DNA from: Sulfuricurvum sp.
GTDB taxonomy: Bacteria; Campylobacterota; Campylobacteria; Campylobacterales; Sulfurimonadaceae
DNA: 64,000 nucleotides
Assembly (NCBI RefSeq): GCF_028710345.1
Contig: NZ_JAQTUH010000001.1
Coordinates: 1-64,000 of the forward strand
Reading direction: 5' to 3'
This document shows, piece by piece, positions 24,617-50,332 of this stretch (positions are counted from its first letter, which is position 1; every line of letters begins with the position of its first letter). The notes beneath the pieces are model-generated. The model had not been told where the DNA came from and searched no databases. It saw only the letters and a program-made list of their open reading frames with translations. The translations under genes were made by a program, and so were the position numbers.

Positions 24617-24649
24617 ATTATGAGATAAGAGTGTTACATTTGTGTTAAG
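24617..24649 (-). promoter_or_regulatory. operator copy 1 with -10 box, driving the TauE-like/tonB/cytochrome c unit
   Basis: Read on the minus strand, CTTAACACAAATGTAACAC (24649-24631) is followed by T, seven bases and a -10 hexamer CATAAT (24622-24617). The two TAACAC half-sites are 11 bp apart, one helical turn. No -35 box is present where the repeat lies, which suggests an activator site. Confidence 0.7.
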
Positions 24650-24650
24650 G

Positions 24651-24683
24651 CTTAACAGTAATGTAACACTCTTTTGAAATAAT
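24651..24683 (+). promoter_or_regulatory. operator copy 2 with -10 box, driving the receptor/YjiM-YjiL unit
   Basis: CTTAACAGTAATGTAACAC (24651-24669) is followed by T, seven bases and AATAAT (24678-24683), the same geometry as copy 1. Copies 1 and 2 are back to back, so the whole forms a 46-bp palindrome with 14-bp perfect outer arms (AAGAGTGTTACATT) and serves two divergent transcription units. Confidence 0.7.
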
Positions 24684-24712
24684 TCTTGGATTTATTTAAT
24701 ACAAGGATATTA

Positions 24713-26905
24713 ATGCAGAGAATTAAGTTATCAATGGTAGCAGTCATATTTTGTAGTAGTGCGTATGCAAGTGAAACAGTTGATTTGGGGGATGTATCGA
24801 TTACAGCGACGAAAACAACGCAAAGTACATTTGAATCTCCTGCAAGTGTTGAGGTTGTGAGTGCAAAGAAAATCGAGCAAAAATCGGTTCAGCGAGCGGA
24901 TGAGGCACTTAAAGATGTCGCGGGTGTTACGGTGCGCTCAACAGGGGATCACGCTCCGAACAGTTATAATAATCAAGTGACCTTACGTGGTATACCGGGG
25001 TATTACAGAACGGCTGTTATGGTGGATGATTCCCCTATGAACAATGCATTTTCTGGTGGTGTAAACTGGTCGAATATGATGGTGGATGATATTCAACAAA
25101 TTGAAGTAGTTAAGGGACCTTTTTCGTCATTGTATGGCGGGAATGCTATGGGGGGTGTTATAAACATCATCACTAAAGAGCCTACAGAGAGAGAAATATC
25201 TGTAAAAACGGGTTATGGAAGCAATAATTATAAAAACGGTTCAATTATTTATCGGGATAAAATTACCGATAAACTCGGTATTACGCTCGATTATAACCGA
25301 CAACAAAGTGATGGTTATGTCGGTGATTTAGTAGTAACCAAGTCTCCCTCCAATGGCACAAGCGGGACAAGTGTGTTTGGTCAAGAGGCTTCAACGGATT
25401 CGACAGGCAAAACGGTTTATATCGTAGGAGACAAAGGGAATAAACCATGGTGGATGAACAATGCGGGCATCAAGTTAATATATAGATTCGATGATGTTTC
25501 AAAGCTGACGTTCGGTATGAGCTATCATGAACATAAAAATGATTATGATCGTTTTAATACCTATTTGAGAGACAGTGCAGGAAATCCGTTTTATTCGGGA
25601 AGTGCACAATTAAATTCGACACAAGTAGCATCTATGAGTGAAAAAGATTATCTCTCAGGTCCAACCGGAGAAGAGACGAAAAAGTATACTCTTGCGTACG
25701 AAACAAAATTTATGAACACGGTCAAAGCCAAATTTAAAGCTGATTATACGGAGTTTGGATATTGGTATATTTCTCAATCTACGGGGGCAACATCGAATGG
25801 TGGGGCAGGGACATTTACTGATATTCCCAACAAAAAAACGTATGCATCGGCACAATTTGATTTTCCTCTCGGTGAAATGAACTATATCGTTATCGGTGTG
25901 GATACCAATAAAAACGAACTGGATAAATCGGTAAAAGTCTTACCGAATTGGAGAGACGATTCAACAACGACGACTTTGAACTCGATTAATAACGGGGATA
26001 GTACAACAAATGCGTTGTTTCTCCAAGATACTATAGATTTTTCTGAACAGTGGGTTTTATATGTCGGAGGTCGATACGATACATGGAAAACCAAAGGGTT
26101 AGCCGAGAGTTATGTAGCACCTACATACTCATTAGCATACGATACCCGAAAAGATTCTCAATTCAGTCCTAAAGCATCACTTGTCTATCTCCCTACACAC
26201 AATACAACTATTCGAACATCAATAGGGCAAGCATTTAAAGCACCGTTATTATCCGATTTGTATTCATCGTATGTTGGTAGCAACGGTACATTGTATCAGG
26301 CAAATTCGGATCTCAAACCGGAAAAGACAACATCATGGGAGATTGGATTTGATCAACGTTTTGGTACAAAAACGGAACTAAAAGCGACCTATTATGTCAA
26401 CAATCTTACAAATCTAATCTATTCAACACAGGTTAGTACGACGTTAAATGAAAAACGTAATGCAGGAAAAGCGAAAATTAATGGAGTGGAAGTAGAGGTT
26501 AAACAAGAGTTAGTAGAGGGAATTAACGCATTTGCAAATTTTACCTATAGCGATACTGAAATCACCCAAAACGATGCTAATCCTGCTTTGGTCGGTAAAG
26601 AGCTTACCTATATGCCTAAAAAACAATTCAATATCGGTGTAACGGGAAAACAAGGTTCTTGGAACGGGTCATTGATTGCAAATTATATGGATGATCTCTA
26701 TACAACTGAGACAAATACTGATGTAGTCAAAGGGGTGTATGGTGCTTATGAATCCTATTTTACGGCGGATGCAAAAATAGGGTATCAGTTTACAAAATGG
26801 TTAAACGGCTCGTTGGCGGTCAATAATATTTTTGATAAAGAGTTTTATCAGTATGGGTTAAACGCGGGACGAACGGTATACGGCGAGTTGGCATTTAAAT
26901 TTTAA
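24713..26905 (+). CDS. TonB-dependent outer-membrane receptor 1
   Basis: The 730-residue protein has a signal peptide (about 1-19, AYA) and TonB box ETVDLGDVSITA. The plug domain (about 40-155) contains VTLRGIPGYYRTAVMVDD and VVKGPFSSLYGGNAMGGVINI. The barrel ends in AFKF. The ATG at 24713 has AAGGAT upstream. It is a clear paralogue of the next gene: they share the signal, TonB box and plug layout. The ligand is unknown; BtuB/FepA-like small receptors of this kind import metal chelates. First gene of a nine-gene plus-strand run to 36199. Confidence 0.9.
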   Translation: MQRIKLSMVAVIFCSSAYASETVDLGDVSITATKTTQSTFESPASVEVVSAKKIEQKSVQRADEALKDVAGVTVRSTGDHAPNSYNNQVTLRGIPGYYRTAVMVDDSPMNNAFSGGVNWSNMMVDDIQQIEVVKGPFSSLYGGNAMGGVINIITKEPTEREISVKTGYGSNNYKNGSIIYRDKITDKLGITLDYNRQQSDGYVGDLVVTKSPSNGTSGTSVFGQEASTDSTGKTVYIVGDKGNKPWWMNNAGIKLIYRFDDVSKLTFGMSYHEHKNDYDRFNTYLRDSAGNPFYSGSAQLNSTQVASMSEKDYLSGPTGEETKKYTLAYETKFMNTVKAKFKADYTEFGYWYISQSTGATSNGGAGTFTDIPNKKTYASAQFDFPLGEMNYIVIGVDTNKNELDKSVKVLPNWRDDSTTTTLNSINNGDSTTNALFLQDTIDFSEQWVLYVGGRYDTWKTKGLAESYVAPTYSLAYDTRKDSQFSPKASLVYLPTHNTTIRTSIGQAFKAPLLSDLYSSYVGSNGTLYQANSDLKPEKTTSWEIGFDQRFGTKTELKATYYVNNLTNLIYSTQVSTTLNEKRNAGKAKINGVEVEVKQELVEGINAFANFTYSDTEITQNDANPALVGKELTYMPKKQFNIGVTGKQGSWNGSLIANYMDDLYTTETNTDVVKGVYGAYESYFTADAKIGYQFTKWLNGSLAVNNIFDKEFYQYGLNAGRTVYGELAFKF

Positions 26906-26922
26906 ATAAACGGAGAGATAGG

Positions 26923-28929
26923 ATGAAAAGAATTACATTATCATTGGCAGCAGTGGCGTTTTGCAGTAGTGTTTATGCGAGTGAAGCGGTTAATTTGGGA
27001 GATGTGTCGGTTACGGCAACACGAACGGAACGTAAAGTTATCGATGTTCCCGCGAGTATTGAAATTATTACCCAAAAAGATATTGAAAGTTCTGTTGCAC
27101 GAAGTGCCGATGAGTTGCTCAAAGAGGTCTCCGGTATCGATTTTAAACACAATATCGGGGTGATGAGTGCGAGTACTACCAATAAAATTGTGATGCGCGG
27201 TTTAGGTGGTTCTACTGAGGGGCGTGTGTTACTGCTCATAGATGGTGTACCCATGAACGATATGTATGGTGGAGAGGTAGAATGGAACCGAATCCCCGTT
27301 TCGATGATTCAGCGTATCGAAATCGTCAAAGGGGTTTCATCAGCATTATACGGTTCGGGTGCTATGGGTGGTGTTATTAATATCATTACGAAAAATCCTA
27401 CAGAGAAATTTAATGCCGATGTTGCACTCACTTATGGAAGTATGAATACGAAAATAGCGTCTCTGGGTGCGGGAGGGAAATATAATGATTTTGGATTTAT
27501 CTTCTCCGGCGATACTATGACCAGTGATGGATACAATCCGGAAACGACAGCAAATACAAAAACATATACTCGCGACAAAGGGGCGGAACGTAACAATTTT
27601 AATGGAAAAGTGACGTACGATATCGACCCGACATCATCGATCTATCTTTCCGGTTCCTATTATGATAACCAAACAACGGGAACTATGAGTTTGGCGGGAT
27701 ATAACCCTTACCATCAGGAGTTAAAGAACTATTCTACCGGGTATACCAAAAAATTTGACAATCATGCAGAGTTCTCAGTACGAGCATTTTATAAAGACGA
27801 ATACAGCAAATATGACTCTGCTAACACTGCTAAAACAGCGGTTCAATATCAAAGTTCCAGTACAAATCTCGATCAAGGAGGCGGGTTACAATACACCCTT
27901 CCTCTAACAGATAATGGGGTGCTCGGAACGAGTACTCTTGTTAGTGGTGTCGATTTGAGACAGGGGAGTATAAATCGTCATAATTTTTATATAGACGGCA
28001 GTGGAAAAGATATTAAAGTTCAGGGAAAACAACAATATGTTGGACTGTTTTTACAAGATGAGACATTTATCGGAGATAATTTTATTATTAACGTCGGAGG
28101 TCGTTACGATACGTGGGACAATTATGACGGATACAATTATGATACCTCTAGGTCACCAAATGAGACTACTTACGCAAAAACATCCACTACCGGATTTAGC
28201 CCAAAAATAGGGGCAGTGTACCATGTTAGTGACTCAACATCGCTTCGCTCATCAGCAGGAAGTGCTTATCGTGCACCTACCCTCTCAGATTTGTATAACA
28301 CCTATGTTTCAGGATCATTAATTTACTACGGTAACCCAGATTTAAAACCTGAGAAAGTAGTGTCGTACGAGATTGGGCTTGATCAAAAGATTGGTGATGG
28401 AAAGATCAATCTTACGGCTTATCAGAGTTATGCAAAAGATTTCTTTTATTTTGTGACAACTCCACCGAGCGGAGGCTATACAAAAGCTCAAACAAAAAGC
28501 AATGTCGGAAAGGTAAAGATACACGGTGTTGAAGCGGATTTTACCTATCCGTTGTATGAGAATATTCAATTGTTGACAAATTACACGTATAACGTTTCTA
28601 AGATTGATGAATACATACAAAATACCGCATTAGAGGGTAAATATCTGATTGAAGTGCCAAAACACAAAGGGTCACTCACCCTCTCTTATAGTAATCCTGA
28701 ATGGTTTGATGCGAAATGTGCTGCACGCTATGTTGGGAAACGTTTTAGCGATGATGTTAATACGGTGCAATACAGCAGTTACACTATGTATGATTTGAAG
28801 CTTTCTAAAAAAATCGGATCAATGGTTGAGGCGGCTTTGGAAATCAACGATTTGTTTGATAGTGGGTATACCGAGTATTATGTATCTCCGGGACGCGTTG
28901 TCTATGGTACGTTAAAAGTGACATTCTAA
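26923..28929 (+). CDS. TonB-dependent outer-membrane receptor 2
   Basis: The 668-residue receptor has a signal peptide (YASE) and TonB box EAVNLGDVSVTATR. The plug ends VKGVSSALYGSGAMGGVINI and the barrel ends LKVTF. Only 17 bp separate it from receptor 1, with GGAGAGATAGG upstream, and the first 40 residues are near copies, so the pair arose by tandem duplication and then diverged in the loops. The ligand is unknown. Confidence 0.9.
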   Translation: MKRITLSLAAVAFCSSVYASEAVNLGDVSVTATRTERKVIDVPASIEIITQKDIESSVARSADELLKEVSGIDFKHNIGVMSASTTNKIVMRGLGGSTEGRVLLLIDGVPMNDMYGGEVEWNRIPVSMIQRIEIVKGVSSALYGSGAMGGVINIITKNPTEKFNADVALTYGSMNTKIASLGAGGKYNDFGFIFSGDTMTSDGYNPETTANTKTYTRDKGAERNNFNGKVTYDIDPTSSIYLSGSYYDNQTTGTMSLAGYNPYHQELKNYSTGYTKKFDNHAEFSVRAFYKDEYSKYDSANTAKTAVQYQSSSTNLDQGGGLQYTLPLTDNGVLGTSTLVSGVDLRQGSINRHNFYIDGSGKDIKVQGKQQYVGLFLQDETFIGDNFIINVGGRYDTWDNYDGYNYDTSRSPNETTYAKTSTTGFSPKIGAVYHVSDSTSLRSSAGSAYRAPTLSDLYNTYVSGSLIYYGNPDLKPEKVVSYEIGLDQKIGDGKINLTAYQSYAKDFFYFVTTPPSGGYTKAQTKSNVGKVKIHGVEADFTYPLYENIQLLTNYTYNVSKIDEYIQNTALEGKYLIEVPKHKGSLTLSYSNPEWFDAKCAARYVGKRFSDDVNTVQYSSYTMYDLKLSKKIGSMVEAALEINDLFDSGYTEYYVSPGRVVYGTLKVTF

Positions 28930-36994: not shown

Positions 36995-39343
36995 TTAGAA
37001 TTTATAATTCACACTAGTGTAAAGTGTGCGACCCATACCTGGGACAGCAGTACCCCACATGGATGCGCTTCCTGAGGCACCGTATGAGCCTGCATTTGGT
37101 GTTGCATAACTGATTGTACCAGCTTCTTTGTTAAGAGACATGGTTGCACCCTCTCCGGTATAAGCACCGCCAAGTGGCAAGTAGTAAAGGGTATCGAATA
37201 GATTTTCTACACCGAAATCAACACGCACTTTCTGCCATGAGTAACTGCCACGCATATTAACGAGGCTATAACCGGGCGTTTTGATTTCATTGCGCACGTC
37301 TGAGACGCTATCTTTTGCTTTAACCCCAATCATTTCAAGTGCATTATCCCAGTTGCCTGATGTATGTGTTAATGCTAGTTTCGCATTGAGCGGCATGATA
37401 TTGTATAAATCATCCCCTGTTTCACGATTTTTACCGTTGGTATAGTTTACTACACCTTTTAGACTAAAATCGCTTCCGAGTGACATTTTACCGGCAAGGT
37501 CGATACCGTAAAGGCGTGCTTCTTGATTGACGTATTGTAATCTGACGAAACTGTTGGTGGCGGTTGCATTGGCTGCCGGAGCACCAGGGTATGTACGGCG
37601 AGCATCAATATAATCTTGGACATGAGAGTAATACGGTGTCATCATAAACTGATATTTACCTCCGACACTGTGCCAATTTGCAGTGAGACTGAGGGTGTGA
37701 GCAATTTCAGGTTTGAGATCAAGATTTCCGACATAGCCGTTACCATCACCGACAAAGTTGTTCATCTCCATTGCCATGGCGTTGGTTGACCACGGATATC
37801 GCTCATAGAGGTTTGGAGAACGGGTTTTTTGAGCAAGACCGAACTCGATTGAACTTTGTTCATTGAGGGCATTTTGTGTCAATAGTGTTATGTCCAGATT
37901 GTTATCGGTTCGTTTGTGATCCAAATCATTCCAAGCTTGTCGTGTCCCTACGGAGCTGTTGGCATACATCATACCGGTATTGTAGCCTTGGATATCACCG
38001 CTATCGCTTTTTACTTGTTCGAAGCGTAAACCAAGCAATGATTTCCACTGAGGACTCCATGTGGCTTCCCACTCACCGAATGCTGCTAAACGATCACGTT
38101 TGCCGTCACGAATATTCCAAAACGTATCGGGTGCCATCCCTCCGGTACAGTTGGCGGTTGAGCCTGTATAGCCACAATCAGGTGCCGGTGGCCACCAGTC
38201 GTTCAATCGGTAGGTTTGCCCTTCCATACCGAGACGTAACAGATCTCTGGAGTTAAGTTCGATATCTGTTTTGATAGAAACACCGTTGGTTTTTCCTTCG
38301 GTGTACATCGGCATACCGTTGACGGGATAGGTATTGTTTACAAGAGCACCGTAGTTGTAGAGTTTATCCTCTCCAAAATCCATGAAATGATCTACGGTTT
38401 CGTGGTAGGCACGCGCTTCTAAATTACCCCATCCGAACGAGGCGGCGTAACGTAGATTGAGCCGTTTTTCCTCATTATCTAACATATCCATACGCTGATT
38501 CGGATAAAGTTGGTACGGTAAATCTTGATAGCCGAATTTAGCCTCGAACAGCTGATTGTTGTTTTGGAATGCAAGCCCTAGTGTGTGGTTACGCGTCTCA
38601 TACGCTGTCGAACCCACCTCGTCTGAATCTACTTGGCGCAGTGTAGGTGTTCCGGCGTTGAGGGTATTGGACGGATTGATGGCAGTAGTGAGGGTAAAGT
38701 GTTTGTAATCGCCACCTGCTTTGTAATTATCAGATTTGGCGGTTGCGCTGTTATAACTAATGTTTAACGATTCGGTAGCGTAGGTAGCCGACAAGTTGGC
38801 ACCATAAGCATTGCCGTTGCTACGGTAGAATGCACCGACTTCACCTTCAAATAAGTTACCTTGTCCCGGCAGAGCAAATTTCGGTGTACGTGTTTCAGCG
38901 ATGATACTACCGCCGATGCTATCACCGCCGACACTTACCGGAGATACGCCGGTATACACTTTCATTGACTCTACATTCGTCGGATCGACATAGGATAGTG
39001 CAGGGTTCATGTGGTTCGGACATGAGGCAATCAGATCCATACCGTCCACTTTAATCCGCAGACGATCATCCGCGAGTCCGTGGATGGCAGGTAAACTAGA
39101 TACACCACCGGCACCGTAGAGATTTACACCCGGCACGTCACGCAAAAGCGATGCTGTATCGCTGGTTGCCGCACGCAGTTTTGATAGCTCAGGTTTGATT
39201 ACGGATTCGCTGGTATTGTCGGTGTTTGCAACAACCGAAATTTTGTCCAACTGGAGTTCGGTCGTGTTTTCAGCCCCAAAACAGGAGCTAACAATTAAAG
39301 ATGAAAGTAGAATGCTATGAGCAATTCGACGATTATTTACCAT
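36995..39343 (-). CDS. TonB-dependent copper receptor (OprC/NosA-like)
   Basis: The 782-residue receptor has a signal peptide (about 1-22), a TonB box around ELQLDKISVVAN, and in the plug the signature SCPNHMNPALSYVDP (Cys108, His111, Met112). In Pseudomonas OprC and NosA a CxxxM in this position binds copper, so copper import is the best assignment. The barrel has further Met-rich loops (NAMAMEMNNF, PMYTEG) and ends SVNYKF. It stands alone between an intrinsic terminator and an operator copy at 39377-39409. Confidence 0.88.
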   Translation of the reverse strand: MVNNRRIAHSILLSSLIVSSCFGAENTTELQLDKISVVANTDNTSESVIKPELSKLRAATSDTASLLRDVPGVNLYGAGGVSSLPAIHGLADDRLRIKVDGMDLIASCPNHMNPALSYVDPTNVESMKVYTGVSPVSVGGDSIGGSIIAETRTPKFALPGQGNLFEGEVGAFYRSNGNAYGANLSATYATESLNISYNSATAKSDNYKAGGDYKHFTLTTAINPSNTLNAGTPTLRQVDSDEVGSTAYETRNHTLGLAFQNNNQLFEAKFGYQDLPYQLYPNQRMDMLDNEEKRLNLRYAASFGWGNLEARAYHETVDHFMDFGEDKLYNYGALVNNTYPVNGMPMYTEGKTNGVSIKTDIELNSRDLLRLGMEGQTYRLNDWWPPAPDCGYTGSTANCTGGMAPDTFWNIRDGKRDRLAAFGEWEATWSPQWKSLLGLRFEQVKSDSGDIQGYNTGMMYANSSVGTRQAWNDLDHKRTDNNLDITLLTQNALNEQSSIEFGLAQKTRSPNLYERYPWSTNAMAMEMNNFVGDGNGYVGNLDLKPEIAHTLSLTANWHSVGGKYQFMMTPYYSHVQDYIDARRTYPGAPAANATATNSFVRLQYVNQEARLYGIDLAGKMSLGSDFSLKGVVNYTNGKNRETGDDLYNIMPLNAKLALTHTSGNWDNALEMIGVKAKDSVSDVRNEIKTPGYSLVNMRGSYSWQKVRVDFGVENLFDTLYYLPLGGAYTGEGATMSLNKEAGTISYATPNAGSYGASGSASMWGTAVPGMGRTLYTSVNYKF

Positions 39344-39376: not shown

Positions 39377-39409
39377 ATTATGGATAAGAAGTGTTACATT
39401 AGTGTTAAG
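39377..39409 (-). promoter_or_regulatory. operator copy 3 with -10 box, copper-receptor promoter
   Basis: On the minus strand CTTAACACTAATGTAACAC (39409-39391), then T, seven bases, then CATAAT (39382-39377). Spacing is identical to copies 1 and 2. The ATG follows about 34 bp after the -10 box. Confidence 0.7.
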
Positions 39410-39560: not shown

Positions 39561-39593
39561 CTTAACACTATTGTAACACTTCTGTTTTATTGT
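39561..39593 (+). promoter_or_regulatory. operator copy 4 with -10 box, siderophore-type receptor promoter
   Basis: CTTAACACTATTGTAACAC (39561-39579), then T, seven bases, then TATTGT (39588-39593). Geometry matches the other copies, although this -10 box is the weakest of the five. Confidence 0.65.
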
Positions 39594-39620: not shown

Positions 39621-41783
39621 ATGACTTCTTCTTTCATCATACGACGAACTGTATTATCCAGTTTGGCGGCTGGATATTTATGTATTGCTAATGCACAAGA
39701 TACGGTGCAAATCGAAAAAATTCAAATAACGGCAGATACGGAAAAAAGCTATAGCGCTACGTCAGCAAGTGTGGGGACTCGAACAGATACTTCTATCGTA
39801 GAGATACCTCAATCGATTATTACGGTTAAAAAAGAGGTGATTGAGGATCAGGGATCAAAAACTCTATCGGATGCTTTACGAAATGTGAGTAATGTGAATA
39901 GTGTCGATAAACGTGACTCCAATATCGTCGGATTTAAAATCCGAGGGTTTAACTCTGCAACCGTTATCGATGGGATTGCGATGCCGGGGTATTTTCCAAA
40001 TCAGGAAAGTTTGGTTAATGTCGAGCGTATCGATGTTGTCAAAGGACCATCGGGTGCTTTGTTTGGCAGTTCACAAGGTGCAGGAACTTATGGAACGCTG
40101 GGGGGAACGGTTGCGATAACAACCAGTGAGCCTGAAGCGGTAGCAACACAAAAGCTAGGGATGAAATTTGGTAGCTACGGAGAGAAAGGTGGATCATTTG
40201 ATATTAATCAACCGATTAATAATGAGTTGGCAGTTCGATTGGTTGGGGAAATATCGGATAGCGACAGCGAAACAGATAATGTATATTTTAAGAAAAAAGC
40301 ACTTTTCCCATCCTTTTCATGGAGACCAAGCGGACAAACAAGTGTCGTATTAAGATTACGTTATTTGGATGATGAAACGCTTGATTACAGTGGATTGCCG
40401 ATCAAAGGGACGCTTGATACTTCTACTCATACTTTAGCACGTAGTACCAACATTACTGCGAATGGACTTCCCGCAACAACCACAACTTCCAAGGGAGCAA
40501 ATTTACAAGTCGATCAAGTAATTGTAAAAGATTGGAAATTTAATTTGGTGGCAGGATACAATGAGATCGAAGTGGATGAGCGTGGTGTATATGCGACCAC
40601 TTCAGCCGACTTTTTCGGAATGTCCTATGGTTCTGCGGATATATCAGCAAATCTTTTTGGGGTGCGTTTGTGGGATAAATGGAAAACAACTACGCTTTCT
40701 CCAAGTGTAACAGGAAAATTTATGACAGGTTCTATCGAGCATACCTTGATGGGAGGGATTGATTATGAAAAAACAAAAGATGATGCCTTTATGGTCGTAT
40801 CGGATCCACTGGGATATATGATTTCACCGTTGAACGGATTTACTCCGGTTAATTTAACGAATCCGACGTATCCTAACTGGGTGGAACCCGTAGCACCCTC
40901 TACACCTACTCAACAAAATACCTATCGTTCGAGCGTCGTCTATTTACAAGATCAAATGGATATTGGCAATTTGCATCTTTTGGGAAGCGTACGACATTCA
41001 AGAATCAACATTGATGATGCCAATACAGATCCACTTTTCGGTGGTACGAGCAACCATACCACCAACACATCAACAACTCCTCGTGTAGGGGCAACCTATG
41101 AATTTACCCCTGAGTTTTCGATTTTTTCAGGATACAGCGAAGGGATAAAAGTCCCTACGGGCTCTAAATTTACCACCCCTCCAAAACCCGAAGAATCAGA
41201 GCAAAAAGAGATTGGTTTGCGTTTGAGTAAATTTGCAGGGATTAGTGCAACTTTAGCATGGTTTGATTTGAAACGTAAAAATGCAGCGGTTGCCGATTCT
41301 GCACACCCTGGTTATTCAATACAAACCGGAATACAACAGTCTAAAGGTGTTGATTTGGACGTATTATGGGAAGTGAACCCGTCGTGGAAATGGATCGGTG
41401 CTTTCACAACCCAAACCGCAAAAATTACCGAAGATACAACCACATCTAGGGTTGGAAAACAACTCTTTAACGTCCCTGAAAAATCGGCACGAATAGCAAC
41501 CCGCTACGATGTGATGGGTGGTACATTGGATGGATTAGGGATGGGGTTGGGGATGACGTATCGCTCAGAACTCCCTGTAAATACAACCAATACGGCATTT
41601 ACCCCATCAGCGTCTGTATGGGATGCGCAGCTCTCTTATAAAATGGCACATGCGCGTTATGGAATTAACATTAACAATCTACTTGGTAAAGAGTATTACA
41701 TCCCCTCAGCTTATTTCGGTGGCGGGCAAGTGACACCGGCATCTCCAAGAACGGTTATGGCTACCGCAATGTTTACGTTCTAA
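39621..41783 (+). CDS. TonB-dependent siderophore-type receptor
   Basis: The 720-residue receptor has a signal peptide (about 1-25, ANAQ) and TonB box DTVQIEKIQITA. The plug is of the ferric-siderophore class (SVGTRTDTSIVEIPQSIITV, then VGFKIRGFNSATVIDG, then VERIDVVKGPSGALFGSS). The barrel ends MATAMFTF. It is followed after 13 bp by an exported PfpI-family gene and is driven from operator copy 4. The imported chelate may carry iron or another metal such as copper. Confidence 0.9.
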   Translation: MTSSFIIRRTVLSSLAAGYLCIANAQDTVQIEKIQITADTEKSYSATSASVGTRTDTSIVEIPQSIITVKKEVIEDQGSKTLSDALRNVSNVNSVDKRDSNIVGFKIRGFNSATVIDGIAMPGYFPNQESLVNVERIDVVKGPSGALFGSSQGAGTYGTLGGTVAITTSEPEAVATQKLGMKFGSYGEKGGSFDINQPINNELAVRLVGEISDSDSETDNVYFKKKALFPSFSWRPSGQTSVVLRLRYLDDETLDYSGLPIKGTLDTSTHTLARSTNITANGLPATTTTSKGANLQVDQVIVKDWKFNLVAGYNEIEVDERGVYATTSADFFGMSYGSADISANLFGVRLWDKWKTTTLSPSVTGKFMTGSIEHTLMGGIDYEKTKDDAFMVVSDPLGYMISPLNGFTPVNLTNPTYPNWVEPVAPSTPTQQNTYRSSVVYLQDQMDIGNLHLLGSVRHSRINIDDANTDPLFGGTSNHTTNTSTTPRVGATYEFTPEFSIFSGYSEGIKVPTGSKFTTPPKPEESEQKEIGLRLSKFAGISATLAWFDLKRKNAAVADSAHPGYSIQTGIQQSKGVDLDVLWEVNPSWKWIGAFTTQTAKITEDTTTSRVGKQLFNVPEKSARIATRYDVMGGTLDGLGMGLGMTYRSELPVNTTNTAFTPSASVWDAQLSYKMAHARYGININNLLGKEYYIPSAYFGGGQVTPASPRTVMATAMFTF

Positions 41784-44294: not shown

Positions 44295-45617
44295 TTACTT
44301 TTGTTTTAACACCCATTCAACGAGAGTTTTTGCCTCGTCATCGGTGAGTGTTTGTGTAGGCATTGGAGTTTCACCCCATTTACCTTGGCTACCATTTTTG
44401 ACTGAGGCGATGAGAACATCGGCGCTTTCGCCTTTGGCAGCAACCTCTTTATAAGCAGGTCCTACGAGTTTAGTATCAACACTGTGACATGCTAAACACC
44501 CTTTCGAATCTGCTAGTGATACCGCCGGATCGAGAACGACAGCCGGAGCATTTTTCATCTCCTCTTTGTGTGCTTTGTACTCGGTGATGACGTTGGTCAT
44601 GTATTCTTGAGTCGCTTCGGCTTGAAGTTGAAGCGGTTCTTCGAAACTTACCACGCGGATACCGTGACGAGCTGTCGCCATCAATGTTACTGCTACAATC
44701 ATCAATACCATTGCTTTGGTTGCATCCGATCCATTAAACTCTTCATTGCTAAAGCGTTTGAGGAGGAAGAAAAACAAAATCAACAATACCGCTGATGCCG
44801 CAAATGGCAAGAAGACAAACGGTGTATGAATATACGCTTCACTGATACGTGGGCTGAAGGCGAAAAATACCAACGGTAAAACAGCAATATTGACAGGTGC
44901 TGCCCACATAAACCATTTTTTACCTTGATCAATCGCCAAACGACCTACTTCTGCATCTTCTCCGCCCGCTTTAACCCATTTGACTCCAAGATAGATCATG
45001 ACGATCCCTGTGAAAGCAAATGCGGTGAGGAAGAAGTTGATGAGACGGAAGAACGTCAACGGAGTCAACATAATGTCCCAAATATTTTTCACCGTTGCAA
45101 ATAATTCCGGTTGCAAATAGAGATTTGACATCGACATAAACACCGGAGGCAACGTATAGAACGTCAATACTGCAACGAGCCCGATAGAGATATGGAACCC
45201 TTTGTGTTCATGCAATGCATGCCAGCTAAATTTGTACGCATACGAGAGTAAGAACGCGAAGATATTCCCGTAAATGATATGCAAAATATGCGGAGATACT
45301 TTGAGAATCGCCGTATAGAAAAATCCGGTATAGAGTACCGAGATAACCAAGAGTGGAGCGACCCCCCACAATGCCCCCATATTTTCACTAATGGTGGTAG
45401 GGTTGGTCATTTTGTATGCCAACAAATCGTTTGTTTTGGACTTTTTGAATACCCCAAAGATATTGTAGAGAACCGACGCCGTCGAAGCTCCGATTAGGGT
45501 ATAGATAAATGCGATGTGCACGACAAAAACGATAACACCGAGGCTGTCAAAAAACCAGCCCGGTAGTCCCATCGTCGGTACGACGAGGGGGATGTCAAAA
45601 GGGAGTTTCCAGTTCAT
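44295..45617 (-). CDS. bd-superfamily-like membrane subunit with C-terminal cytochrome c (second subunit)
   Basis: The 440-residue protein has about eight to nine membrane spans and a C-terminal class I cytochrome c domain (CLACHSVD near residue 372, Met ligand in GETPMPTQ). The membrane part echoes the companion subunit, with conserved His in helices (FVVHIAF, HILHIIYG, FSWHALHEH). It starts in a TAATG overlap with that subunit. Together they resemble a quinol- or cytochrome-linked oxidase of the bd superfamily, but oxygen reduction is not proven by sequence. Confidence 0.72.
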   Translation of the reverse strand: MNWKLPFDIPLVVPTMGLPGWFFDSLGVIVFVVHIAFIYTLIGASTASVLYNIFGVFKKSKTNDLLAYKMTNPTTISENMGALWGVAPLLVISVLYTGFFYTAILKVSPHILHIIYGNIFAFLLSYAYKFSWHALHEHKGFHISIGLVAVLTFYTLPPVFMSMSNLYLQPELFATVKNIWDIMLTPLTFFRLINFFLTAFAFTGIVMIYLGVKWVKAGGEDAEVGRLAIDQGKKWFMWAAPVNIAVLPLVFFAFSPRISEAYIHTPFVFLPFAASAVLLILFFFLLKRFSNEEFNGSDATKAMVLMIVAVTLMATARHGIRVVSFEEPLQLQAEATQEYMTNVITEYKAHKEEMKNAPAVVLDPAVSLADSKGCLACHSVDTKLVGPAYKEVAAKGESADVLIASVKNGSQGKWGETPMPTQTLTDDEAKTLVEWVLKQK

Positions 45618-47011
45618 TATTTGATCTCTCCTCTTTTATTAAGTGATGCGAGATACGCCGCTAACGCGTCTTTCTCGGCTTCGGTTCCGGTAAACGGAGG
45701 CATATACGGTGTTCCACCACCCGGTAGGTTGTTGAGTCGGTTACGAATCGCCTCTTGACTCCACCCTTTGGTTAGGAATTTGAGACCGTTGATACCGTTT
45801 TCAGTATGGCAGGCACGACATTCGATTTGGGCAATCGTGTGACCCACTTCGATGAGGTTTGATTTATCCTCTTTGAGCACTTTTTTATCTTCATCGACAA
45901 AGACGGCGTGTTTGAGAATCCCTACTTTGTTTAGGTATGGCACGTCGGTAACACGGATACCGTTGGCATACATGTAGTTATAGATGAGGTAAGGTTTACG
46001 GATAAACTCACGGGTACGCTCTTCGTAACCCCAAAAGAGCATAAATGCCGCAACCATAAGAGTAGCGGCAATGTATGGCATACGTTTTGGTGAGAAGTAG
46101 GCAATAATCGTTGTAAGAACAACCGTTCCGCCGATACCGCTGATAATCATGTGCATCAAATCCATTTTATCGGCAAATGCTCTCGTCATCATTGCGGTTG
46201 GGATCATCGCACGCGCCGCTTCAGGGATTTGGAGCAGATAGTAATATCCAAATGCTGCAGCAACCGGAACCGTGACTATCATAATGGTTGCGAAAAATTT
46301 GATCATCCGCTCTTTGGTTGCACGAATCTCTTCATCTTTACTGAAGCTGGTTATGAGCCACGTCCATAGAATAGCAAGTGCTCCGGCAAACGCGATGGAA
46401 CTAAAGGTTCGCATCATAAGTCCCGGTATCCATGTCGGATTAAAAAGGGCATTGTTGTAATTAACGACTCCCGGATATACTTCCGGATCAATCCATGGCT
46501 GACCATCGAAGTTCGGTGTCAACATAAAGCCCAAAATCGCGGTAATAATCAGCATTGTTACCCATGAAGAGACGGCGTAAAAAATTCCGAATTTAACCGA
46601 TTTAGAACGTCCTTCTGCTGTTTCGGCTTTAGGTTTCCATGTCATAAACCAGAAGAGGAGCAATACGACTTCGAAGTTAAATACGATCCATTCGATAAAC
46701 CATTTCCAAAAGAAGACGCGGATGAGTCCGCCGATAGCATTTGGGCTGATGATATTAGCGTGAATCCACATCCCGATTCCAGTGAGGGCACCGACAGAGG
46801 TAGTGATGATAAAAAAGACCATGAGGAGACGATAGACGGTTTCATACCCCGCCAAATCATTTTTCTTGTTGGTCCACCAAGCGGCGAGAGCAAGCACCAC
46901 AGACCCTCCGACAGCACCGCCATGAGAGACGAATACGTGGATGATCGCATTGATTGCCATGAGCATTCTTAGCCCAATCGTAGGCATTTCGAATATGGGG
47001 AAATCGAACAT
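45617..47011 (-). CDS. cytochrome bd-superfamily-like subunit I with C-terminal cytochrome c
   Basis: The 464-residue protein has about nine membrane spans. It shows a CydA-like pattern: His in the first helix (INAIIHVFVSHGG), a Gly-rich second helix (GALTGIGMWIHANI), an E-containing helix (FIEWIVFNFEVVLLLF) and a fourth helix (AVSSWVTMLIITAILGFML). A C-terminal domain carries one haem c (CRACHTENG, about 405). Canonical CydA has no haem c, so this is one of the divergent, haem-c-bearing relatives. It is the first gene after a 300-nt leader and operator copy 5. Confidence 0.75.
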   Translation of the reverse strand: MFDFPIFEMPTIGLRMLMAINAIIHVFVSHGGAVGGSVVLALAAWWTNKKNDLAGYETVYRLLMVFFIITTSVGALTGIGMWIHANIISPNAIGGLIRVFFWKWFIEWIVFNFEVVLLLFWFMTWKPKAETAEGRSKSVKFGIFYAVSSWVTMLIITAILGFMLTPNFDGQPWIDPEVYPGVVNYNNALFNPTWIPGLMMRTFSSIAFAGALAILWTWLITSFSKDEEIRATKERMIKFFATIMIVTVPVAAAFGYYYLLQIPEAARAMIPTAMMTRAFADKMDLMHMIISGIGGTVVLTTIIAYFSPKRMPYIAATLMVAAFMLFWGYEERTREFIRKPYLIYNYMYANGIRVTDVPYLNKVGILKHAVFVDEDKKVLKEDKSNLIEVGHTIAQIECRACHTENGINGLKFLTKGWSQEAIRNRLNNLPGGGTPYMPPFTGTEAEKDALAAYLASLNKRGEIK

Positions 47012-47437
47012 ATATATCCTTTATGTTTTATATCATGCCCATGAGCGAAGCCCATTGGCATGGCAGGGAACAGATGTCCCTTACAACTCCCTAAAGCTTT
47101 TTGCATAAATACAAAAGATTTTAAAAGAGTGCATTTGAAAGGTGTATATGCACGACAACGTCGGAGAAATAGCCAAAAATTTGCTATAATAAGACGTTGC
47201 TATGCAATACGTTTTTCCGTTTGCTTGAGAGCTGCAATTTTCACAGCAGACGGATCGTTTTGATGGCTTACTACGACGTTAATCCTCCTTCTCTCTTCTA
47301 ATTTGGTTATTTCAGAGTGTTATTATTTCATTCTAGTGTTACATTTGTGTTAAGTGATTAGTGATTTTATTTAATTTTTCTTTTAGACTATTAAAATAGT
47401 AAATTGGGAGCGGTAAATATTAGGGAAAGATAGCTTA
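47012..47437 (-). other. leader and intergenic region upstream of the bd-like operon
   Basis: No full gene is visible. On the minus strand the region runs from operator copy 5 through an AGGAGG (47289-47284) that is followed by an open 25-codon stretch (VVSHQNDPSAVKIAAL...) with no ATG, GTG or TTG start. A palindromic ATGCCCATG ... CATTGGCAT (47034-47060) lies near the operon start. It could be a degenerate leader peptide or a regulatory RNA. Confidence 0.4.
47322..47354 (-). promoter_or_regulatory. operator copy 5 with -10 box, bd-like operon promoter
   Basis: On the minus strand CTTAACACAAATGTAACAC (47354-47336), then T, seven bases, then AATAAT (47327-47322). The geometry is the same as at 24.6 and 39.4-39.6 kb. 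Transcription would start about 300 nt before the oxidase gene. Confidence 0.65.
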
Positions 47438-48949
47438 TTAAAGGCAGTGATCTCTAAAGGTCTCACGAATGAGTAAAAACTCCTCTAAATGGTCGAAAAA
47501 GATATCGATGAGTTGAGGATCGAAATGGCGACCTCTTTCTTCTTTAAAGAGTGTAAAAATACGTTCATCTTCCCACGCTTTTTTATAAACGCGATCACTT
47601 CCAAGGGCATCAAAGACATCGGCTAGCGCGGTAATACGTCCATAAATATGGATGGCTTCCCCCGATAAACCTCTGGGATAACCGCTTCCATCCCATTTCT
47701 CATGATGTTCATAAGCGACGATAGCGGCCGCTTGGAGCAGGGTGCGATTGGAGTGTTTGAGCATCTCATACCCAAGTGCCGCATGGGTGTCCATGATCCG
47801 TCGCTCCTCTTCATCAAAACGTCCCGGTTTGTTGAGTACGGCATCGGGGATAGCCACTTTACCGATATCGTGCATCGGAGAAGCTTGTTTAATCATTTCT
47901 GCCTCCCCTGAGTCTAATCCATAATAGAGGGCGAGAAGTTTCGAGTATTCGGCTACCCTTTTGACATGATTTCCCGTCTCTTTGGAACGACTCTCCCCGA
48001 TAGAACCCATCGTAAAGACAACTTCTCTTTGGGTCTCTTCAATCTCTTCATTAAGGTCGGTTATTTCATGGAGAGCGTGATCCATACCGTTAATCATGGT
48101 ATTAAATGAGAAGGCGAGTTCCCCTATTTCATCGTGACGATTGAGGGTCACTTGTTGGGTATAGTCTTGGGTATGGGTGATTTTTTTGGCGGTATTGGAG
48201 AGGGTGATGATTGGTTGGATTAAGTAAGTTGCGATGTAATAAGCGGCGATAGAGATAAAAATTCCTCCCCCTAACAACAAGAGGACAAACCATAGTTCGT
48301 ATTTGTATAGCAATTTATAGGCTAATGCTTTCTCTTCTTCGAGAACAATAGTGATATTGGGAGTCGATTCCAGTGTTTTAGAGACTTCAATCGAATCGGT
48401 AAAAACAGAAGGTCTTAGTGCCGTTTGTCCATCCAAATAGAGGAGATAGTAGTGTCGATCTGCGGTGTTGGAAAAGAAATTGGAAAAATTGGTGACAGGG
48501 TAGATAAGGGAAAGTGTCCCCACTTTGTCAGAGGAGATATTGGAAAAAACGGGGATACTAAAAAAAGGGTTTTGAGGAGTCTCTTTACCGATCATCGTAA
48601 AATCGCTTGAAGCGACAATTACCCCTTTGGTATCGGAGAGATAAAAATCTCCGGTAATTTTGAGGTCTGTTTTTTTGGAGAGAAGGGAGTTACTGATCCG
48701 TCTGTCCAAATCTTTTGTGTAAATATCGTTCATGATATCAGATTTGGCTAAAAAGTCCATATCGTTATGAAGGGTATGGAGGTGCTGATTGATCCTCTCT
48801 ACACTCATCCCTAGCTGGGTGTTCATCTCCTGTGTTGCCGATTCATAGAGCTCTTGTCGAAAAGAGTTACCCAGCATAAACATTGTCAGAGCGTAGGGGA
48901 TGAGGCTTATTGCCAAAAAGAGGAGGATAGTTTTGAGTTTAAAACTCAT
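47438..48949 (-). CDS. membrane HD-GYP cyclic-di-GMP phosphodiesterase with sensor domain and HAMP
   Basis: The 503-residue protein has two membrane spans (about 7-27 and 216-240) around a Cache-like periplasmic sensor, then HAMP (about 240-295). The HD-GYP domain shows ASPMHDIGKVAIPD, HHEKWDGSGYP and LADVFDALGSDRVYKKAW. Such enzymes degrade cyclic-di-GMP. It overlaps the substrate-binding-protein gene by 11 bp and follows a porin-like gene, which suggests that the periplasmic partner feeds it a nutrient signal. Confidence 0.9.
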   Translation of the reverse strand: MSFKLKTILLFLAISLIPYALTMFMLGNSFRQELYESATQEMNTQLGMSVERINQHLHTLHNDMDFLAKSDIMNDIYTKDLDRRISNSLLSKKTDLKITGDFYLSDTKGVIVASSDFTMIGKETPQNPFFSIPVFSNISSDKVGTLSLIYPVTNFSNFFSNTADRHYYLLYLDGQTALRPSVFTDSIEVSKTLESTPNITIVLEEEKALAYKLLYKYELWFVLLLLGGGIFISIAAYYIATYLIQPIITLSNTAKKITHTQDYTQQVTLNRHDEIGELAFSFNTMINGMDHALHEITDLNEEIEETQREVVFTMGSIGESRSKETGNHVKRVAEYSKLLALYYGLDSGEAEMIKQASPMHDIGKVAIPDAVLNKPGRFDEEERRIMDTHAALGYEMLKHSNRTLLQAAAIVAYEHHEKWDGSGYPRGLSGEAIHIYGRITALADVFDALGSDRVYKKAWEDERIFTLFKEERGRHFDPQLIDIFFDHLEEFLLIRETFRDHCL

Positions 48950-49340
48950 AAATAACCTTTACTCCCGAGTCAACCATAGAAGCAGGGATATACCCGATAG
49001 CCCCTTCAACATTTTGGACAAACAGTTTGACCGATTCGGAAGAGGATTGGGTGATGGGGGGGGATATCCCTTGGAAGTGTTGTTTTATCCAATAGGTATT
49101 TAAGCTCTCTCGATTCATTCTTATAATCTGTGATTCAAATAAGATACGTGAATCCTCTTGCCCCACGAGATTGATAGGGATTACTTTTTGATCTCCCAAT
49201 GAGTGGCGTTTCATCAGGAAAATATCTCGTATTTGTTGTGCTGTAGCAGTAGAAAAAGGGGACTTTTTCGAGGTAATTACAGCGTACTCAGATGCTGAAA
49301 AGATTCCGATAAAGCAGCAAAGTAAAACTAGCGTTTTCAT
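48939..49340 (-). CDS. PstS-like periplasmic substrate-binding protein (short)
   Basis: The 133-residue protein has a signal peptide (MKTLVLLCCFIGIFSAS). It then shows the PstS-like start VITSKKSPFSTATAQQIRDIFLMKRHSLGDQKVIPIN, a WIKQHFQG block and GAIGYIPASMV. It is a half-length phosphate-binding-protein type domain, not a full transporter subunit, and no ABC genes are near. ATG 49340 overlaps the upstream stop (TAATG). It probably senses rather than transports. Confidence 0.8.
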   Translation of the reverse strand: MKTLVLLCCFIGIFSASEYAVITSKKSPFSTATAQQIRDIFLMKRHSLGDQKVIPINLVGQEDSRILFESQIIRMNRESLNTYWIKQHFQGISPPITQSSSESVKLFVQNVEGAIGYIPASMVDSGVKVIYEF

Positions 49341-50332
49341 TAAAAAAGTACCGAAAAAGAGAGTAGGACACAATCAAGGTTTTCTTGAGAATGCCATTGG
49401 TATTCCCCTTTGATGGAGACGGGATAGAGTGGCCGATAACTGTATCCGAGGATACCGATATTGTCAGTATAGTTTTGATGCTGATCGTTATAATACTCAT
49501 ATCGTCCGATAAGGGCATGTTCGTTTGAAAAATGGTAAACGCTTTGGAGATATCCGCTTCTAACGTAATCATTTTGACTATCAGAATACTCTTTTTTTGC
49601 AATAACCCCTTCTGCGGTGAGCAGTAATGGTTGGCTGTCGTATTTCCAGTTTGCTTGGATAAATCGTGTTTTTTCTTTTGAATTAAGGGGTGTAAATTCC
49701 CCTATACTTCCCCCTACACTTATATTTGAAGGGAATTCATGTTCCAGTGATAACCCATAAAAATGGGTATTAGGGATATTGATATACTCTTCATCCATAT
49801 CGTGGGTAGATTGTCCAAAAAGATGATATCGAGTTGAATCGCATTGAGGGATATAGCCATTAATATCAATACCGGTTAAAAATTTTGGGAATAAAAGCAT
49901 ACTGTAGAGAGGGTTAGAGGTAGTATCGCGTAAAACATTAATAGGTTCAAGATTCCAATATCCGATGGGGGTGATTTGTTTTCCAAAACGGATATTAAAG
50001 GCATCAGAGATCCATGCATCTCCATAAAGTCGTTCGATGTGAAATTTTTGGGTTCCACCATCGCTTCCATCGGTAAAGTTTTTTTGGTAAAAACCTACCG
50101 CTTCCAGCTCTCCCAAATACGAAAAACGTGAATTAATATCACCGTATGCCAAAACGGCTACATCATCAAAAGTTAATGTGTCTTTTTGCTCATTTGATTG
50201 GAACCCACTAGAGAAATATCCCCCTACTGTTAAGGTATCGTTTAGGGTGGCACCATGCCCTAATTCATAAGCGTATAATTGTGCAGAGATGGAAACGAGG
50301 ATGAGGGTAGAAAGAAATTTTTTTAGATGCAC
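49340..50332 (-). CDS. porin-like outer-membrane beta-barrel protein
   Basis: The 330-residue protein has a signal peptide (about 1-21, LYAY) and many alternating aromatic beta strands. Family-like segments are LTVGGYFSSGFQ, GDAWISDAFNIRFGKQITPIGYWN and LIGRYEYYNDQH. It ends LSFSVLF. The layout resembles phosphate-selective-porin-like barrels. It is the first gene of a trio with a PstS-like protein and an HD-GYP sensor. Confidence 0.75.
   Translation of the reverse strand: MHLKKFLSTLILVSISAQLYAYELGHGATLNDTLTVGGYFSSGFQSNEQKDTLTFDDVAVLAYGDINSRFSYLGELEAVGFYQKNFTDGSDGGTQKFHIERLYGDAWISDAFNIRFGKQITPIGYWNLEPINVLRDTTSNPLYSMLLFPKFLTGIDINGYIPQCDSTRYHLFGQSTHDMDEEYINIPNTHFYGLSLEHEFPSNISVGGSIGEFTPLNSKEKTRFIQANWKYDSQPLLLTAEGVIAKKEYSDSQNDYVRSGYLQSVYHFSNEHALIGRYEYYNDQHQNYTDNIGILGYSYRPLYPVSIKGEYQWHSQENLDCVLLSFSVLF

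Follow-up and report, generated by a model that had tools for sequence, protein, structure and literature searches.

Does a membrane complex that resembles cytochrome bd and carries a haem c at the end of each subunit draw its electrons from quinol or from cytochrome c, and what does it reduce? This question is raised by two overlapping genes in the DNA analysed here, a window of 64,000 nucleotides from contig C1 of a 3.0 Mb Sulfuricurvum-like assembly (Table 1). The initial annotation had read them as a two-subunit bd-like complex with haem c at both ends (CRACH and CLACH motifs), and the open reading frames, the Pfam c domains and the bd fold bear this out. The frames of subunits I and II share one base at the stop/start junction and are followed, in the same direction, by a gene for a TlpA-like thioredoxin and then a CcoG/NapH-like gene. 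Sulfuricurvum, Aliarcobacter and a related genus all retain this four-gene order; in Methylophilaceae, Zoogloea and Thiothrix the pair occurs without the two downstream genes. Both downstream products are likely accessories, the TlpA/thioredoxin-like protein for haem c maturation or redox supply.

Further out, a porin, phosphate-binding-like and sensor trio like that at window positions 47438-50332 recurs at another locus (L020), where multihaem cytochromes come next. Just beyond the window end (C1:64154-65194), a 516-aa protein with a weak COX1 match and no NCBIfam match adjoins an ABC transporter ATP-binding gene.

Table 1. Features of the operon and its surroundings (window numbering, except where contig C1 is named)
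Feature	Position	Strand	Basis
Operon gene pair, subunits I and II	44295-47011	-	two overlapping membrane-protein ORFs
Subunit I, 464 aa: membrane domain of CydA type (8 TM helices predicted), one-haem cytochrome c at the C-terminus	45617..47011	-	ORF, bd fold, TM model, conservation
Subunit I cytochrome c domain, ~aa 379-464, CRACH aa 398-402, distal M437	45620..45877	-	Pfam; cytochrome c6-like structural matches; invariant M437
Subunit II, 440 aa: paralogue of subunit I (CydA'-like) ending in a c551-type domain	44295..45617	-	ORF; profile match to I, not CydB; fold
Subunit II cytochrome c551-type domain, ~aa 356-440, CLACH aa 374-378, distal M419	44298..44552	-	phmmer to c551 structures; structural match
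TlpA/thioredoxin-like protein, 162 aa	43669..44157	-	Pfam; gene order conserved in Sulfuricurvum, Aliarcobacter, related genus
Short CcoG/NapH-like membrane polyferredoxin, 304 aa	42755..43669	-	NCBIfam, below CcoG cut-off; gene order conserved
Structured RNA leader, two hairpins	47138..47268	-	fold z, paired changes, covariance-model matches
Regulatory box TTAACACAAATGTAACA, upstream of leader	47337..47353	-	motif counts, own contig and relatives
Further box copies in window	39392-39408; 39562-39578; 24632-24648; 24652-24668	-; +; -; +	
Box copies beyond window, contig C1	about 114198; about 114285		
TonB receptor cluster, haem/siderophore/copper type	36995-39343; 39621-41783; 24686-28929	-; +; +	several with a box

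Fold and haem sites of subunit I

The predicted structure of subunit I matched only CydA chains at E<0.001, and VIA-align superimposed it on Geobacillus CydA (5doq_A) with Z 24.0 and rmsd 3.9 over 319 residues, these models being single chains without haem and of medium confidence (mean pLDDT 67 for subunit I and 71 for subunit II). By sequence, 5doq matched subunit I at E 4e-9 and, in a second comparison, at E 8e-12. The CydA-type fold is present in both subunits. In subunit I the residues of the two-haem active site are kept as well: H25, E107, E335 and R338 occur in 30/30 subunit-I sequences of both clades described below and E114 in 29/30, and by alignment they correspond to E. coli H19, E99, E445, R448 and E107, respectively, the match of E335 to E445 following from the end of the last superimposed helix at 348/458 (model/6rko), provided that this helix is ungapped. 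H30, too, never varies in these sequences, and E. coli CydA has no residue that corresponds to it. Comparison with CydA, the check proposed with the initial annotation, thus found a bd fold, with the dihaem-site residues retained rather than all haem b/d ligands lost.

What subunit I does not retain is the canonical quinol site. Its TM6-TM7 loop measures 24-33 residues, as compared to about 140 for the quinol loop of E. coli CydA. The axial ligands of haem b558 (E. coli H186 and M393) have no evident equivalents in the window's clade, that is, no His occurs in residues 185-222 (TM5, the haem b558 position) and TM7 has no conserved Met. R201, considered as a counterpart of H186, was rejected, since H186 maps near position 200, which R201 merely neighbours. 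In the sister clade, residue 197 is a His, roughly one turn away from where b558 is bound, and the loss of b558 is therefore clear for the window's clade only. With both the quinol loop and the b558 His missing, direct quinol oxidation is unlikely, which sharpens the original wording, electrons 'rather than only quinol'.

It is conceivable that the enzyme nevertheless oxidizes quinol directly, with the c domains as side branches, or acts as a quinol:cytochrome c reductase like alternative complex III, whose membrane subunits also match the fold (Z 15.5-18); a role of this sort has been proposed for related Nitrospina bd-like proteins (PMC3578206). However, besides the shortened loop and the absent b558 His, the residues of the dihaem O2 site are retained and bc1 is already present in 10/10 carriers tested, which makes this reading improbable.

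Subunit I ends in a cytochrome c domain (PF13442, E 7e-9) and subunit II in another (PF00034, E 1.6e-6), the distal Met of each being invariant among homologues, and neither subunit contains the haem-copper COX1 domain PF00115 at E up to 1. Eight TM helices are predicted for subunit I as compared to nine in CydA, which places the C-terminus in the periplasm, as haem c attachment requires. The positive-inside count agrees for subunit II (14 in, 8 out); for subunit I it is 14 in and 16 out, 9 of the latter lying in the linker to the c domain. There is good support for the earlier proposal that electrons pass via periplasmic c haems, and since each subunit carries its own cytochrome c, cytochrome c is probably the electron source instead of quinol. 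The Pfam CydA model does not match subunit I in its own genome, so that the protein is easily missed; the sister form exceeds the cut-off of this model in three genomes.

Subunit II and the two forms of the pair

The membrane domain of subunit II also adopts the CydA fold (Z 20.7 over 300 residues). In hhalign comparisons it matched subunit I with P 97.7 (E 2e-12), CydA with 45 and CydB with <1, and an assignment as CydB was rejected accordingly. Subunit II is a diverged copy of subunit I, i.e. CydA'-like. Thus, the bd relationship of both subunits stands, while the subunit makeup has to be refined. Judging from H34, present in 30/30 sequences, and an E or H at position 318, subunit II may bind one or more haems; it is unlikely to form a second O2 site, as counterparts of E107 and E114 are absent. 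Its c domain resembles c551/c552 structures (phmmer, E 6e-24), whereas that of subunit I is c6-like, and at 27% identity between them it was not recently copied from subunit I.

Homologues of subunit I were found at 24 other loci with 36-95% identity, almost all with the same partner adjoining; the closest, at 91-95% identity, are from Sulfuricurvum. Conservation of the bd-type two-c pair is far beyond chance. Trees of subunit I and subunit II resolve the same two clades. The two-c clade comprises Sulfuricurvum, Aliarcobacter, Methylophilaceae, Zoogloea and Thiothrix, and a pair on an Agrobacterium plasmid is sister to its members. The product name 'cytochrome C' of the Agrobacterium partner proved wrong, its translation containing no CxxCH, and subunit II therefore probably gained its haem c within the two-c branch. 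The sister form carries haem c on subunit I only. Among 298 sampled Campylobacterota genomes, it occurs in ~29 and the two-c form in 4, and its clade reaches Methylosinus and Thermus plasmids. On the Methylosinus plasmid (L049), the sister pair adjoins methanobactin (copper) genes and feoB. A truncated-haemoglobin gene lies just downstream of the pair at L011, as confirmed by Pfam, and by sequence likeness at L013 and L018.

The two forms never occur together in any of 33 genomes. Within one Aliarcobacter-type genus, the two-c operon and a single-c pair occupy the same slot (L081 and L089; genomes G297 and G127): the flanking proteins are conserved (GNAT 77%, NicO 59%, ZnuA 79%, Fur-like 75%) and the subunits I are 29% identical. 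Sharing slot and neighbours within one genus, the two forms look interchangeable.

Genomic context and regulation

In two Arcobacter-type genomes, the sister pair lies directly 3' of the bc1 genes petABC (Rieske, cytochrome b, dihaem c), in one case together with a one-haem cytochrome c gene, and a response regulator comes next downstream. Methylotenera, Agrobacterium and Methylosinus, too, have two-component genes of sensor-kinase/response-regulator type beside the pair. A complete single-contig Campylobacterota genome (G175, locus L090) contains bc1 and the sister pair, and searches of it returned no haem-copper oxidase and no NO reductase. On gene content, this genome offers no candidate cytochrome c oxidase besides the sister pair; it also encodes canonical CydA, and its cytochrome c could feed other periplasmic reductases. 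As cbb3 is present in 37/38 carriers, the enzyme is not needed as sole cytochrome c oxidase in most genomes. Only cbb3 is listed in a published description of a Sulfuricurvum genome (PMC4288042).

The same context bears on the acceptor, which had initially been left open and for which the comparative evidence now favours O2 over NO. As a nitric oxide reductase or NO-detoxifying enzyme, the complex would reduce NO at a dihaem site fed by cytochrome c; the c551/c552 class, which the c domain of subunit II most resembles, does include cd1 nitrite reductase donors, the window's own genome has a cd1 nitrite reductase, and a gene for truncated haemoglobin follows the pair in Zoogloea and, as judged from sequence, in Thiothrix and at one Methylophilaceae locus. 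However, strong cd1 nitrite reductase matches were obtained in only ~5/20 carrier genomes, with none in most Sulfuricurvum and Aliarcobacter carriers, and the pair associates with bc1 and cbb3, not with denitrification neighbours. These counts revealed no strict tie to cd1 nitrite reductase, and we consider NO reduction an improbable reading.

Upstream of the operon lies a TTAACA-N5-GTAACA box, of which 9 copies occur in the 460 kb of contig C1 searched for both box and leader, as compared to 0 in order-2 Markov controls. Copies stand at this operon, twice at ccoN (ccoNOQP), at TonB receptors, in a TonB gene promoter region and once at pyrC. Box variants (TTAACA-N5-K-TAACA) precede most Campylobacterota loci of both forms. 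Read as its complement, the box includes TGTTACA, the sequence that the Cj1509/HP1021 regulator binds best (PMC6052347); homologues of this regulator (CemR) control genes of the respiratory chain, ccoN-Q among them (PMC11334517). Binding of the box by an HP1021/CemR-type regulator is suggested by this motif match as a lead.

Between box and start codon, a two-hairpin leader was found whose folding z is -4.5 for the window copy and reaches -8 among Sulfuricurvum relatives. Its first hairpin shows compensatory pairs among relatives, which also yielded covariance-model matches, and it precedes the same operon at eight loci (L001-L005, L017, L082 and L083), although the genes upstream differ. No Rfam family matches the leader, and no second copy occurs in the 460 kb of contig C1. 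Possibly, it acts as a regulatory RNA. An O2-scavenging or redox-sensing complex instead of an energy-conserving oxidase would suit cbb3 in nearly all carriers, the box common to operon and TonB receptors and the structured leader, but conserved proton-pathway glutamates and the sister-form bc1 operon point to a respiratory role, leaving this the least probable of the readings.

A probable cytochrome c:O2 oxidoreductase of the bd superfamily

We consider it probable that the operon encodes a copper-free terminal oxidase of the bd superfamily, a cytochrome c:O2 oxidoreductase that uses cytochrome c instead of quinol. Its donor, acceptor, haem types, electron path, stoichiometry and link to copper are what we infer from the computed features. 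In the proposed mechanism, electrons would leave quinol via the bc1 complex and be carried by soluble cytochrome c to the haem c tethered to subunit I, to subunit II or to both. From there they would reach the dihaem site in subunit I (H25, E107 and E335, with E114 and R338), where O2 would be reduced to water without copper. Protons would be drawn from the cytoplasm, from which we propose that the enzyme is charge-separating but non-pumping. Subunit II would serve as a CydA'-like scaffold and second electron entry, and the enzyme as a copper-free alternative to the cbb3 oxidase with which it shares its regulatory box. More tentatively, the complex may be a variant with two unlike tethered entry domains that is exchanged in situ for a form with a single entry; it would stand in for copper-dependent cbb3, controlled by a regulator common to both and by an RNA leader of its own operon sensing a metal, haem or redox signal.

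How does this compare with known systems? The likeness to canonical CydAB (E. coli bd-I, Geobacillus 5doq) is confined to the subunit I fold and dihaem-site residues, whereas the long quinol loop, the TM5 b558 His (in this clade) and CydB are missing and haem c domains replace TM9. A C-terminal haem c is a trait of the OR-C family of bd enzymes. OR-C and OR-N are families with a predicted cytochrome c donor that had already been recognised from sequence (PMC8509429, PMC10839748, PMC13189123), which the initial annotation did not take into account. As the work of Murali, Gennis and Hemp (2021) is summarised in review, the quinol site is absent from two of the three bd families, which are probably cytochrome c users, and loss of this site with the dihaem core kept, as used there to delimit OR-C and OR-N, is what subunit I displays (PMC8509429). 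By these summaries, the pair shares with both families the bd dihaem core, the absence of a conserved quinol site, a predicted cytochrome c donor and the CydA-CydA' pairing; it differs in that the window's clade has haem c on both subunits, of a different c type on each. The best reading, by comparison with such review descriptions, is that the pair is probably of the non-quinol (OR-C/OR-N) kind, as a new variant and not a new class.

The Nitrospira and Nitrospina bd-like oxidases (OR-N) similarly have an N-terminal part like CydA, in which the haem ligands are retained and the quinol residues are gone, and are linked to c-type cytochromes (PMC3578206, PMC6606698). For the Nitrospina protein, however, 14 TM helices are predicted and descriptions mention no fused c domain, as compared to 8 TM helices and a fused c domain here. 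With cbb3 (CcoNOP), the pair has in common the proposed donor and acceptor, membrane-tethered haem c and, in its own genome, the regulatory box, whereas the folds are unrelated and cbb3 contains copper.

Taken together, the pair is a real, overlooked and well-conserved variant of a known, biochemically uncharacterised kind. All biochemically characterised bd enzymes were quinol oxidases according to a 2021 review, and a bd enzyme with another donor was still to be obtained (PMC8509429). The operon, its sister form and the G175 genome, which lacks a haem-copper oxidase, provide concrete material for testing a non-quinol bd enzyme. If cytochrome c is indeed used, neither copper nor the haem-copper fold would be indispensable for a cytochrome c oxidase, and annotations of the respiratory chain in many sulfur-oxidising Campylobacterota and methylotrophs would be missing an enzyme and need revising.
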